A stretch of DNA of 7,223 bases from Desulfobacteraceae bacterium (GTDB lineage Bacteria; Desulfobacterota; Desulfobacteria; Desulfobacterales; Desulfobacteraceae): the NCBI GenBank assembly GCA_003354055.1, contig PIVQ01000362.1, positions 1-7,223 on the forward strand, written 5' to 3'. A model generated the notes under the pieces. It did no database searches. It saw nothing but the letters and a program-made list of their open reading frames with translations, and was not told the DNA's origin. The stretch's first letter is position 1, and every line of letters starts with the position of its first letter. Positions 1,112-5,293 of the stretch are shown in pieces. A program made the translations under genes and the position numbers.

Positions 1112-1492
1112 CTACAACCGGTTGAATATATTGGTGACACCGACCATTTCCAGAACAACCAGAACGATGAGCAGGACGCCGAGAACGGCCAGCACATTTG
1201 ACCCGGCAGGCAGATCGTCCATTTTCTGCTGCATTTCAGCTAGTTCGGCCTGGCTCAAAGACCCGATTCGCCGACGGGCATCTTCAGGGTCAACTCCCAG
1301 GGAAACCAGTTGTTCCTGAACGTCCCGGCGCTCAAGTAGGGTCGCAATCTTTTCGGTGGTGATATTCTGTTCCCGGTCGATATAGACAGAGGTGTCGATC
1401 AGGGCTGCCCGGGCCGCCGGCACCAGGCTCGACGTATAGAAAAACATGGTTGTCAGAAAACAAATGAAAAATCTGTATTTTGCTGTTTGCAT
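1112..1492 (-). CDS. PA2779-family small exported membrane protein
   Basis: This 126-residue protein has no known biochemical function. An N-terminal signal peptide (hydrophobic about 7-24) ends in ARA-A, with likely cleavage after A29. The middle (about 30-95) is charged and helical (TTEKIATLLERRDVQEQL, then a short acidic, arginine-rich stretch and SQAELAEMQQKMDDLP). A strong hydrophobic helix follows (about 99-118), ending in a short NIFNRL tail. The mature protein would therefore be held in the inner membrane by its C-terminus with its body in the periplasm. Length, order of segments and position before a C39-TPR lipoprotein match the PA2779 family of Pseudomonas aeruginosa and other proteobacteria. 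There is no Gly-Gly leader motif, so if it is a substrate of the neighbouring peptidase the cut site is not the classical C39 one. The start has a good AGGAG at 9 bases. It is the first gene behind the sigma-54 promoter. Confidence 0.85.
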   Translation of the reverse strand: MQTAKYRFFICFLTTMFFYTSSLVPAARAALIDTSVYIDREQNITTEKIATLLERRDVQEQLVSLGVDPEDARRRIGSLSQAELAEMQQKMDDLPAGSNVLAVLGVLLIVLVVLEMVGVTNIFNRL

Positions 1493-1501
1493 TTACTTTA
1501 T

Positions 1502-1506
1502 CTCCT
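1502..1506 (-). promoter_or_regulatory. Ribosome binding site of the PA2779-family gene
   Basis: AGGAG on the minus strand lies 9 bases before the ATG at 1490-1492. It is the strongest Shine-Dalgarno match at any start in the window and fixes this start codon. Confidence 0.75.
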
Positions 1507-1534
1507 AAGGTTATTGGGTTCTTCCACAAATACA

Positions 1535-1546
1535 GGGCCGCGGCCC
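1535..1546. repeat. Perfect 12-base GC palindrome in the leader
   Basis: GGGCCGCGGCCC is its own reverse complement. It would cover about +5 to +16 of a transcript starting near 1550. As RNA it could fold as a GGGC/GCCC stem with a CGCG loop, protecting the 5' end. As DNA it could be a protein site. The sequence is certain; the role is not. Confidence 0.6.
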
Positions 1547-1560
1547 GACTCCCTTTGCAG

Positions 1561-1576
1561 AGCAAGGGGTGTGCCA
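1561..1576 (-). promoter_or_regulatory. Sigma-54 (RpoN) -24/-12 promoter of the PA2779-PA2778 operon
   Basis: The minus strand reads TGGCACACCCCTTGCT, which fits every defined position of the RpoN consensus TGGCACRNNNNTTGCW. The -24 GG (1575-1574) and -12 GC (1563-1562) have the required spacing. The expected transcription start is about 1550, giving a leader of about 58 bases with a proper ribosome binding site. The site lies in a non-coding gap, in the right orientation, directly before the operon. RpoN promoters need an AAA+ enhancer-binding activator; none is encoded here. I infer that this operon is silent unless such an activator is switched on. Confidence 0.85.
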
Positions 1577-1615
1577 TGATTGTAAGCTTTCGATTCTAAA
1601 GGTTTTTTTGTTTTT

Positions 1616-1631
1616 TGGTTGTGTAGAACCA
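1616..1631. promoter_or_regulatory. Inverted repeat, candidate upstream activator site
   Basis: TGGTTGTGTAGAACCA has perfect 5-base arms around a 6-base centre. Its centre is about 74 bases upstream of the predicted sigma-54 start, close to where enhancer-binding proteins often bind. Short arms like these can occur by chance, so this is only a candidate. Confidence 0.25.
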
Positions 1632-1644
1632 GGGGGCAGGTTAC

Positions 1645-1677
1645 AAAAATTTCATCCGGGAATACGTTTTTTTCCGG
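1645..1677 (-). terminator. Weak candidate terminator after the histidine kinase gene
   Basis: On the minus strand, about ten bases after the kinase stop, CCGGAAA and TTCCCGG could form a 7-base stem with one mismatch and an 8-base loop (1656-1677). ATGAAATTTTT follows. The T tract is not directly adjacent and the stem is imperfect, so termination may be partial and some readthrough into the PA2779-PA2778 operon is possible. Confidence 0.25.
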
Positions 1678-1687
1678 TTCTCGATCC

Positions 1688-4309
1688 TTAAATTGGAAGT
1701 TTGATAATAAATTTAGTACCTTTTCCTAAAACGGATTCAACTTCCATTTTGCCTCTGTGATCATCAACAATAATAAAATAAGAAACAGATAGGCCTAATC
1801 CGGTACCTTGATCAACACTTTTGGTTGTAAAAAAGGGTTCAAAAATTCGTTTTCGTGTTTCCTGGTCAATACCAGGTCCATTATCCTCTATCTCAATACA
1901 AGCCATTTTTGATAGTTTACGAATACGAATTATTATTTCAGGGGTATAATTTCGATGCTGCTTTAGACTCATCGCCTCAGAAGCATTTTTTATTATATTG
2001 AAAAATACTTGTTGTATCTTGCTTCCTTCACATAGAACGGAAGGGATATTAGAGCCGTATTGCCTGATTATCTCAATTTGTTTGAAATCATATTTTTTTT
2101 TGAGATCGTAATCATTTTGTGCAAGCTCAATTGTATTATCAATTAGTTCGTTGATTTCATGCTCGTTTCTGACCGAATCACTTTTTTTTGCAAAACTCAG
2201 CATGTTTTGAATAATTTTTGCGGCACGGATACCGGCCTGATTAATACTCGCAAGTTGATCTAAGATCCCTCGCTTTTCCATGAATTTATTTATAACAGGC
2301 ATTGAGGTACCTAATTCTCGGGCAATCTTATTATTCGCAGGTAAGTCCGTTGTAAGCCTGTTATGAATGACCTGTGCGTTTTGCATCATACCGGCCAATG
2401 GATTATTTAGTTCATGGGCCATTCCTGCTGCAAGACCTCCGACGGACATCATTTTTTCTGACTGAATCATCATCTCTTCATTTTTTTTCTGGAAGGTAAT
2501 GTCATTTACTAAAGAGGCAACTCCCGTCACATTGCCATCAGTATCTTTCAACGTTGTATTGTACCAGTCACAAAGAATTCGTCTTCCGGCTTTGGTAATA
2601 TTTTCGTTGGTACTTCGCTCTCCTCCGCAATCGTTTGATAACTCCTGGAACGTGTCTTGAACAACATCTTTAACCTCTTCGGAAAGTATCAATTCAATCG
2701 CATGTTTTCCAATGGCCTCTTCCCTTGTATAGCCAAATATCCTTTCTGCCGCAGGGTTCCATTCCAGTACTTTAAAATGTAAATCCCACGTGATTGCTCC
2801 TATCGGTGTGTTCTGAAGATGAATTGACAGTTGATGTTCACTTTCTTTTAGTGATTCCTGTGATTTCTTATGAGACATAATCTCATGGTTCAATTTTTTG
2901 TTGGAGTTTCTAAGTTCTTCAGTCCTACGATTGAACCAAAACGCAAGATCGCCAATTTCATTTTTTGGCGTTTCCGGCAAAGTTACCAACTGCTCACCTT
3001 GACCCCGCACTGTTCTGATTAATTGTTTGGTCATGTCTCTTAAAGGCATTATAAGTATATATCTAAGGTATAAATAAGCTATAAATACAGACAGCAACAT
3101 CCCAATTGAAAGGTATATAAGAATTTGCTGCGAAATGCGATTTGCAACCTTTGTAACCTGGGTTTGAGAGGATACAATCACAATTTTCCAATAAGTTTTG
3201 GGCATTAAAAAAAACGATGCAACTGCCGGCTCATTCAATAGAAAATCATTTTCAATGGTAATCGGTTTGAAATTTGTTGAAATCAATTTCCCGGAAGGTC
3301 TGATAAACATGGCGACGATCAATTGTGCCTCGTGAAGATTAATTTGGTAGCTTTCAGAAGCAATGGCTTGTGCCAGTTCATTATTGGAACCTACATCTTG
3401 TAAACTCTGGTCGAGAATTTGCCTATTCATCACTTCTAATGCCATAGCAATTTTTAAAAATTGAGGCTCCTTTTCTGATAACTGCGTGACATTAATAAAT
3501 TCTTCTACTTTTTTTGAAAGTTTCGCAGGTGTTTTTACATAGGACTGATCGGGAAAAGATAAGAATTTATTGTTCCTGTCAACCGCGAATATATACCCGT
3601 TAAAAACGGTGGCTTCTTTATCTAAAAAAATTTTTAAATCATTCAACTTCAGGTCAACAGTGCTGACACCGCTAAATTTTTTGCCGTCAAAGATCGGTAT
3701 AGTCGTGGTTACCATCGGTTCATTTGAATAGGGATCAATATATGATTGTGACCAGTAGGTATCAGTCTTTTTTAGATACCTGGCCGGTACATACCACTCT
3801 TCTAAGTGATAACCCGGACCGTCAAGGTCATTATAGTCATTAAAGTAAACAGGGGTGTTTTCAGCGCCATACCCCCAGAAAAAACTCCTGCGTTCTACTT
3901 CCGGATCAAATACATATGGTTCAGGCCAGATTCCACCACCAGCGACTTTTACATGTGACTCTTTTCCATAGAGGATTTGTGAAACCGTTTTTTTGTATAA
4001 TTGTTCGTCTTTAGGTATTGTTTCAGCAATATTTGCTAAGGATTTTGCCAGTGCCTCTGCATAATTGATACGTTGCCCCAATTGTTCGACAATTGTACGT
4101 CCCTTCTGTTCAATATATCTATAATTTTCTTGGATCATTAATGATTTACCGATTGTCTGAACAACGACAATAATGATGACAGCGCTGGCAAGCATTAAAA
4201 GGATGAACAAAAGATTGATTCTGAACTGAAGTGTTTTATGCACTATAAATCGTGAGCGATTTTTGTAATCTTGTTTTGGATGATTCTCGGCTTTCCGGTT
4301 TAGTTGCAT
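1688..4309 (-). CDS. Membrane sensor histidine kinase (dCache-HAMP-PAS-HisKA-HATPase)
   Basis: This 873-residue inner-membrane sensor kinase autophosphorylates on a histidine and should pass the phosphate to an unknown response regulator. In order: TM1 (about 32-53); a large periplasmic double-Cache (PDC) domain (about 60-390) with FWGYG, EEWYVPARY, YWSQSYID and MVTTTIPIF segments; TM2 (about 395-417); HAMP (about 418-470); a short coiled coil; PAS (about 493-605); and HisKA with the H-box AAGMAHELNNPLAG, phospho-acceptor H632. The catalytic domain has the N-box NIIKNASEA (N771, N775), G1 DNGPG (809-813), F-box FEPFFTT and G2 GTGLGLSV, all intact. The two HisKA helices are joined by an extended segment (about 650-690). 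There is no receiver domain and no regulator gene nearby, so it is an orphan kinase. The gene is markedly AT-richer than both flanks (one sampled line has 18 G/C of 60), suggesting a different history. The start is preceded by AAGAGTG. Confidence 0.93.
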   Translation of the reverse strand: MQLNRKAENHPKQDYKNRSRFIVHKTLQFRINLLFILLMLASAVIIIVVVQTIGKSLMIQENYRYIEQKGRTIVEQLGQRINYAEALAKSLANIAETIPKDEQLYKKTVSQILYGKESHVKVAGGGIWPEPYVFDPEVERRSFFWGYGAENTPVYFNDYNDLDGPGYHLEEWYVPARYLKKTDTYWSQSYIDPYSNEPMVTTTIPIFDGKKFSGVSTVDLKLNDLKIFLDKEATVFNGYIFAVDRNNKFLSFPDQSYVKTPAKLSKKVEEFINVTQLSEKEPQFLKIAMALEVMNRQILDQSLQDVGSNNELAQAIASESYQINLHEAQLIVAMFIRPSGKLISTNFKPITIENDFLLNEPAVASFFLMPKTYWKIVIVSSQTQVTKVANRISQQILIYLSIGMLLSVFIAYLYLRYILIMPLRDMTKQLIRTVRGQGEQLVTLPETPKNEIGDLAFWFNRRTEELRNSNKKLNHEIMSHKKSQESLKESEHQLSIHLQNTPIGAITWDLHFKVLEWNPAAERIFGYTREEAIGKHAIELILSEEVKDVVQDTFQELSNDCGGERSTNENITKAGRRILCDWYNTTLKDTDGNVTGVASLVNDITFQKKNEEMMIQSEKMMSVGGLAAGMAHELNNPLAGMMQNAQVIHNRLTTDLPANNKIARELGTSMPVINKFMEKRGILDQLASINQAGIRAAKIIQNMLSFAKKSDSVRNEHEINELIDNTIELAQNDYDLKKKYDFKQIEIIRQYGSNIPSVLCEGSKIQQVFFNIIKNASEAMSLKQHRNYTPEIIIRIRKLSKMACIEIEDNGPGIDQETRKRIFEPFFTTKSVDQGTGLGLSVSYFIIVDDHRGKMEVESVLGKGTKFIIKLPI

Positions 4310-4434
4310 TTTTTCACTCTTTTGAAATTAGTGCGATGTAATTTCCTCAATCACATCTCATCAGTGGAAAAAAATAACTGAGTTTCCAGTATTAAGCAGA
4401 GCAACTTTTAGTGCAGGTTCATTATTCTATTCAT

Positions 4435-4462
4435 ATTATATTAAAAAAAAATGATATGCAAA
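4435..4462 (-). promoter_or_regulatory. Candidate sigma-70 promoter of the histidine kinase gene
   Basis: On the minus strand a perfect TATAAT (4440-4435) lies 16 bases downstream of TTTGCA (4462-4457, four of six matches to TTGACA). It is about 125 bases before the kinase ATG. The region is very AT-rich, so a chance TATAAT is possible. Confidence 0.35.
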
Positions 4463-4484
4463 AAAATCTTTAATTACGGTTCCT

Positions 4485-4498
4485 CACAAGTACCTGTG
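4485..4498. repeat. Near-palindrome upstream of the kinase promoter
   Basis: CACAAGTACCTGTG has 7-base arms with one mismatch. It lies just upstream of the candidate -35 box (4457-4462) and could be an operator. No regulator is known. Confidence 0.3.
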
Positions 4499-4500
4499 TC

Positions 4501-4537
4501 ATGAGTTCTGAGTCAGACCCGGCGACCCGGCACTCAT
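4501..4537. repeat. Inverted repeat enclosing a tandem octamer
   Basis: ATGAGT (4501-4506) is answered by ACTCAT (4532-4537); a second TGAGT (4509-4513) can pair with the same arm. Between them lies GACCCGGC twice in tandem (4516-4523 and 4524-4531). It sits 33 bases past the exonuclease stop, where base composition switches from GC-rich to AT-rich. It could be a transcript-end structure for the DUF294-exonuclease unit, though no T tract follows directly, or a copy of a short dispersed (REP-like) element. Confidence 0.5.
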
Positions 4538-4570
4538 ACCATAATCGCATATAACTCGTCAGTATTGGGT

Positions 4571-5293
4571 TCAGCGCCAGAGCTCGCACACCGGGGTGTC
4601 CTGCGAAAACTGATCCGCCACCTGGGCCATGAAAAGTTCTGCCGTGGACAGGGCATCGGTCAGGGCATGGTGGGGACGGTATCTGGGAAGGCCGTAACGT
4701 TCCCTGGCATGGGAGAGACGGAGAGACGGACTGTTTTTATCCCCCATCCACCGCTGGATAAAGTTGGGGCGGTAAATGGGATGTTTTCGGGATTCCAGTT
4801 CCATAGTATCGATGGCAGGGAATTCCAGAGGTTCGCCGATAAGGTCCATGGTGGCTTTGTTCAGGAATCCCCGCTCAATCCTGCAGTAATGGGCGATAAT
4901 GACATTGCCGGCCATGGCTTTGAGCACATGACTCAGGGTGTCTCCGAAGCCCGGGGAGGTTGCAAGGTGGGTATGGGTGATGCCGTGGATGGTGCTCATG
5001 GGATCTTCAGGGTTTTCATCCGGACGGATGGTCCAGTTCCGGGCGTTGCTGCAGGAGATCCTATTATAGGTATGGGAGATGAATCCGATACTGACAATAG
5101 CGTCCTTTTCCGGATCCAGACCGGTTGTCTCAAGGTCCAGGGCCAGAAAATTCACCTGGCTGATCGGGGTATGGGGTTGAACCTGGAAGGCCTTATAAAA
5201 ATCTTTTAGCCCGGGATTCATTGATTCATAGGCCAGCCGGGAAAACCGGCTTTTCCAGTCGATAGGCGTCTGGGTTTGGGATCTACCGAACAT
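4571..5293 (-). CDS. DEDDh 3'-5' exonuclease (DnaQ/PolC epsilon-like)
   Basis: This 240-residue cytoplasmic exonuclease probably removes nucleotides from 3' ends of DNA or RNA with two metal ions. About 45 N-terminal residues precede the RNase-H-like fold. Exo I is FLALDLETTG (D53, E55). Exo II is IIAHYCRIERGFL, where the usual aspartate is E140. Exo III is PRYRPHHALTDA (H208, D213), the DEDDh signature. It is a stand-alone domain without polymerase parts. The start ATG lies 3 bases after the stop of the DUF294 gene with only a weak purine-rich stretch before it, so translation is likely coupled. DUF294 proteins and this type of exonuclease are often neighbours in proteobacteria, which suggests a joint role in nucleotide or signal metabolism rather than proofreading; this is inference. 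A 42-base part of the gene is repeated at 61-102. Confidence 0.9.
   Translation of the reverse strand: MFGRSQTQTPIDWKSRFSRLAYESMNPGLKDFYKAFQVQPHTPISQVNFLALDLETTGLDPEKDAIVSIGFISHTYNRISCSNARNWTIRPDENPEDPMSTIHGITHTHLATSPGFGDTLSHVLKAMAGNVIIAHYCRIERGFLNKATMDLIGEPLEFPAIDTMELESRKHPIYRPNFIQRWMGDKNSPSLRLSHARERYGLPRYRPHHALTDALSTAELFMAQVADQFSQDTPVCELWR
4673..4714 (-). repeat. Exonuclease-gene copy of the 42-base direct repeat
   Basis: This is the intact, in-frame member of the pair with 61-102; it encodes the Exo III region just before and including P207. Its right boundary coincides with a tandem octamer, AGAGACGG at 4714-4721 and 4722-4729, which may mark a recombination or slippage point. Confidence 0.85.

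Follow-up and report, generated by a model that had tools for sequence, protein, structure and literature searches.

We consider it likely that the PA2779-PA2778 gene pair is transcribed from a sigma-54 promoter on this contig, and that this is a lineage-specific change from a sigma-70-type promoter. The window, i.e. the whole analysed stretch of 7,223 nt, carries five genes, all on the minus strand, and the candidate promoter lies in the gap before the pair. It is of an ordinary type in an unusual place. Within this explanation, the dependence on RpoN, the position of the start, the activator, the co-transcription of the two genes and the promoter swap are inferred.

The sigma-54 core upstream of PA2779

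Sites were scored against the sigma-54 core consensus TGGCACN5TTGCW, which spans 16 nt with 11 defined positions. The sequence TGGCACACCCCTTGCT (1576-1561, minus strand) agrees with it at 11 out of 11, with the GG at -24 and the GC at -12 both present and no mismatch to the 16-nt core. Its -24 element, TGGCAC (1571..1576, minus strand), and its -12 element, TTGCT (1561..1565, minus strand), are both exact and are joined by a 5-nt spacer, ACCCC. A pattern search for TGGCACNNNNNTTGCW found no other exact match in the window; the remaining three matches have two mismatches each, and the total of four matches at up to two mismatches is about the level of shuffled sequences (mean 3.79). For the whole window, the expected number of exact matches is 0.006 from the base composition and 0.0017 from the rate of the reversed pattern in 84 related genomes. 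The sequence feature is confirmed as real, and for the 11-position core this bears out the full-consensus sigma-54 match that the initial annotation had claimed.

The motif sits in the non-coding 195-nt gap between the kinase gene and PA2779 and points at PA2779, with its start 84 nt and its end 68 nt upstream of the ATG (1492-1490). The C of the -12 element is at position 1562, and the predicted transcription start, an A at 1550 (minus strand), is located 12 nt past it. The orientation, the place in the gap and a start near 1550 are all as that annotation described them. The predicted leader is 58 nt long (1493..1550, minus strand) and contains AGGAG at 1506-1502. A perfect palindrome, GGGCCGCGGCCC, is found at 1546-1535 (+5 to +16 relative to the predicted start) and may act as an operator or form a short stem. 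A structured leader RNA was rejected, as the folding is no stronger than that of shuffles (z 0.30).

We took the density of exact core matches from 84 genomes belonging to the family of G001 (the genome with the Desulfotignum MAG locus L001); the window's organism may fall outside this family. In these genomes there are 1308 matches to the exact core and 89 to the reversed pattern, a 14.7-fold excess, which indicates that the exact matches in this family are mostly real; most of them, not all, are likely to be promoters. From each of 30 genomes we took the first exact site listed and sorted these 30 sites by their position relative to mechanically called ORFs. Of these, 20 are outside CDS-like ORFs and 10 are inside; 15 of the 20 outside sites are within 300 nt of the start of an ORF on the same strand, while the other five have no close downstream ORF.

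Since the motif is exact and well placed, belongs to this enriched class and faces no prominent competing sigma-70 box, a sigma-54 promoter is likely on this contig, and the feature at 1576-1561 is probably a working one. An alternative is that the core match is a chance occurrence or a relic, and that the pair owes its transcription to read-through from the upstream kinase gene or to a weak sigma-70 promoter. The kinase gene and the pair are on the same strand, no terminator-like site is listed on that strand in the 195-nt gap that separates them, a TACAAT box is found at 1584-1579 immediately ahead of the -24 element, and the motif is present in no relative examined. However, an exact match on the correct strand is expected only 2e-5 times in the gap, and the best sigma-70 score upstream of the window PA2779, 3.9, is at background, as 93% of the shuffles reach it (p 0.93). 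We regard this alternative as unlikely.

According to the sigma-54 explanation, the RpoN holoenzyme would sit inactive at 1576-1561 until opened by an NtrC-type activator that is bound upstream or at a greater distance, and a single message starting at 1550 would then span both genes. The 111-nt stretch from the -24 element to the kinase gene (1577..1687, minus strand) is the candidate region for an activator site. Within 160 nt upstream we found weak dyads and no strong or clear activator-binding dyad; such sites can lie farther away. NCBIfam and Pfam searches identified no activator gene on the contig.

Upstream regions of other PA2779-family genes

Of the genomes searched, 83 of 291 from the order of G001 contain PA2779 genes, as do 68 of 274 from the class of G002, 8 of 86 from the family of G001 and, with the window protein as query, 102 of 389 from the order; these sets overlap. 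The 170 loci and the window correspond to 161 distinct genes, and 157 of them, the window included, have at least 150 nt of upstream DNA. Several of the sampled genes share one genome, and some are the second genes of tandem copies, which do not necessarily have a promoter in front of them. Three genomes (G118, G129, G174) have five to six PA2779-family matches each, and two matches in G118 and two in G174 are located side by side.

Among the 156 other PA2779-family genes, none has a sigma-54 core at 10 or more of the 11 positions (shuffles 0.6), and the best score, 9/11, is obtained for 10 genes (shuffles 7.3). Sigma-70 boxes with a score of at least 9 are in contrast enriched, being found for 49 of the 156 genes compared with 14.1 in shuffles (largest shuffle 20), and the mean sigma-70 score is 7.70 versus 5.86 in shuffled sequences.

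The nearest genome loci are eight members (L065-L072) of the family of the Desulfotignum MAG, 45-54% identical to PA2779. Upstream of these eight, the nearest orthologues with DNA, the sigma-54 site is absent in every case. Seven out of eight have a TTGAC(A/G) box, spaced by 16-17 nt and ending 36-45 nt upstream of the ATG, and sigma-70 scores of 8.3-10.5; taken singly these boxes are weak (p 0.03-0.22), and L066-L068 as well as L069-L070 are near copies of each other. For L072, no sigma-70 box stands out. The comparison covers orthologues with DNA; the very closest ones by protein search, P0001-P0003, P0005 and P0006 (73-90% identical), are available as protein sequences only. The first three of these are 87-90% identical, and P0006, PA2779 of a Desulfobacterales MAG (73%), is the nearest protein bearing a name.

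The initial annotation had named missing conservation of the motif upstream of orthologues as refuting its claim, and conservation is indeed missing both among the 156 genes and among the eight nearest orthologues. Its statement that a sigma-54 promoter drives the pair holds as likely for this contig and is not supported for PA2779-PA2778 as such. Judging from these upstream regions, sigma-54 control does not characterise the family in the sample examined. That it is a general property of the pair is extremely unlikely: the one case in its favour is the window itself, while both the sigma-54 counts and the enrichment of sigma-70 boxes in the upstream regions of the family speak against it. So does the PA2779-family promoter of Pseudomonas stutzeri DSM4166, which, in the accessible part of the source, appears in a table of a screen for strong constitutive promoters (PMC10155442). 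The promoter class appears to differ between the window (sigma-54-like) and its relatives (sigma-70-like), and this looks like local rewiring rather than a gene-family rule, i.e. a lineage-specific swap in which the sigma-70-type promoter of related pairs would have been replaced by activator-dependent control.

The gene pair and its neighbourhood

The PA2779 family gene (NF033919 / DUF6627; 1112..1492, minus strand) encodes 126 aa and obtains 110.1 bits in NCBIfam (cut-off 40) and 89.9 bits for DUF6627 in Pfam. The PA2778 family cysteine peptidase gene (NF033920; 132..1106, minus strand) begins 5 nt past the end of PA2779 and obtains 280.2 bits in NCBIfam (cut-off 150); both proteins are far over the cut-offs of their families. 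Read by eye, PA2779 has a signal peptide-like start and a hydrophobic C-terminal tail, and it contains a PAG motif. PA2778 is formed by a C39-like peptidase domain and TPR according to Pfam, with a lipoprotein-like start by eye. Among solved structures, those similar to PA2778 match it through its TPR part, with weak matches to peroxisomal receptors as the exception; none matches PA2779 significantly.

The two genes are near each other in 58 of the 67 loci compared; these include the window, one gene that is present twice (L001, L065) and one locus, L060, represented by a 34-residue piece only. PAG (residues 95-97 of PA2779) is found in 83 out of 83 aligned sequences, and the residue after it is G, S or A in 82 of them; the alignment includes two repeats (P0004, which equals the window, and L065, which equals L001). 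Together with this next residue (95-98, window 1199-1210), PAG is located directly before the hydrophobic tail. C39 peptidases cut at Gly-Gly, Gly-Ala or Gly-Ser. The conserved PAG with G, S or A before the tail, and the C39-like peptidase encoded next door, suggest that PA2779-PA2778 is a dedicated protease-substrate pair with PAG as a possible cut site. If PA2778 cleaved at PAG, the periplasmic part of PA2779 would be released from the membrane tail. A further-reaching idea, which we hold only tentatively and consider rather doubtful, is that a conserved protease-substrate pair, with PA2779 as the substrate, was rewired from sigma-70 to sigma-54 in one lineage and that envelope processing became strictly signal-dependent there. 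No functional study of the pair was found among the papers listed for PA2779, PA2778, C39 peptidase or DUF6627. PA2778 occurs once in PMC3697988. In the accessible part of one source, PA2779 adjoins the divergent PA2780 (bswR) at a distance of 407 bp (PMC3985676).

The other genes of the contig, assigned using NCBIfam and Pfam, encode a CBS/cNMP/DUF294 protein (7210-5297, minus strand), a 3'-5' exonuclease (5293-4571, minus strand) and a histidine kinase with PDC sensor, PAS, HisKA and HATPase domains (1688..4309, minus strand). The kinase gene has a GC content of 37% and the gap before it 35% (together 1688-4570), compared with 52-55% for the other contig genes. The best full-length match to the kinase in the 84 genomes (11 candidates scored per genome) is in G577, at 61%, and has a GC content of 50%. 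The low-GC kinase gene probably arrived separately. In 60-base windows near the promoter, the GC is 0.53-0.60 at 1500-1599 and about 0.38 beyond 1560-1619; as it also drops to 0.27 at the start of PA2779, the break at the promoter is not sharp evidence. A 53-nt direct repeat (89%) at 50-102 and 4662-4714 flanks the kinase-PA2779-PA2778 block; here a stretch from the 3' part of the exonuclease coding sequence is found again downstream of PA2778.

The best NCBIfam model for the kinase is AtoS, with a score of 207.9 that is far under the cut-off of 646. Such kinases often serve sigma-54 activators. G577 shares with the window the order of CBS gene and exonuclease, and a different, convergent ORF comes next. 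This genome has no PA2779 match, and the DNA between its kinase match and the next ORF, which we take to be a glycyl-tRNA synthetase, contains no sigma-54 core at up to two mismatches; the kinase and the pair are therefore not one unit there. The kinase is at most a weak candidate for a dedicated regulator of the pair. The repeat, the GC content and the comparison with G577 fit a rearranged neighbourhood, in which an older promoter of the pair may have been lost.

Among six relatives with longer flanks, the two close ones (G620, G617) share neighbouring ORFs. A conserved neighbourhood was rejected as a clue to function, as the other four relatives share no neighbours, among themselves or with G620 and G617, except the pair at E 1e-20, apart from one distant similarity (24% identity) to what is presumably an efflux-type protein.

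Comparison with known sigma-54 systems

In the accessible part of a study of Desulfovibrio vulgaris, 87 sigma-54 promoters are described with the consensus tGGcacg/tTGCt (PMC4641369). The window site shares both elements and the intergenic place with these promoters. It differs from them by an A where the consensus has a G after the -24 block (PMC4641369), by its missing conservation before orthologues and by the lack of a recognised activator site. Some of the D. vulgaris promoters are likewise described without one. The largest group of sigma-54 targets in that source is flagella and cell exterior (PMC4641369), which makes an envelope signal, part of the surface, envelope or polysaccharide guess of the initial annotation, a reasonable conjecture for the pair.

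The window also resembles the RpoN-dependent PEP-CTERM genes with PrsK/PrsR, in that an envelope-directed protein with a C-terminal hydrophobic tail is preceded by a sigma-54 motif at a similar distance (PMC1569441, PMC9850573). The site could then belong to a regulon of the PEP-CTERM/PrsR type, the pair having been recruited to an exopolysaccharide-linked sorting system. As far as the accessible parts of these sources go, the mean distance from the end of the regulon's sigma-54 motif to the start codon is 71 nt, compared with 68 here (PMC1569441), and RpoN1 dependence was shown for a PEP-CTERM gene that has the elements TGGCAC and CTGCTT (PMC9850573). However, motif 1 of the regulon, which ends in TTTACA, is located about 63 nt before the sigma-54 motif, and there is no TTTACA within 224 nt upstream in the window. 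PA2779 has no PEP-CTERM match in NCBIfam or Pfam at E 0.001, PrsR is not encoded on the contig, and neither an exosortase nor a polysaccharide gene is among the five genes. With both motif 1 and the PEP-CTERM domain missing, we rejected this regulon as very unlikely.

Given the negative result among the relatives, RpoN control of PA2779-PA2778 should not be assumed for Pseudomonas or other organisms on the basis of this contig. If the change from a sigma-70-type to a sigma-54 promoter is true, it would be a natural example of a switch in sigma-factor class by a gene pair that is widespread and uncharacterised, and finding the activator in the source genome would show which signal calls for the pair.
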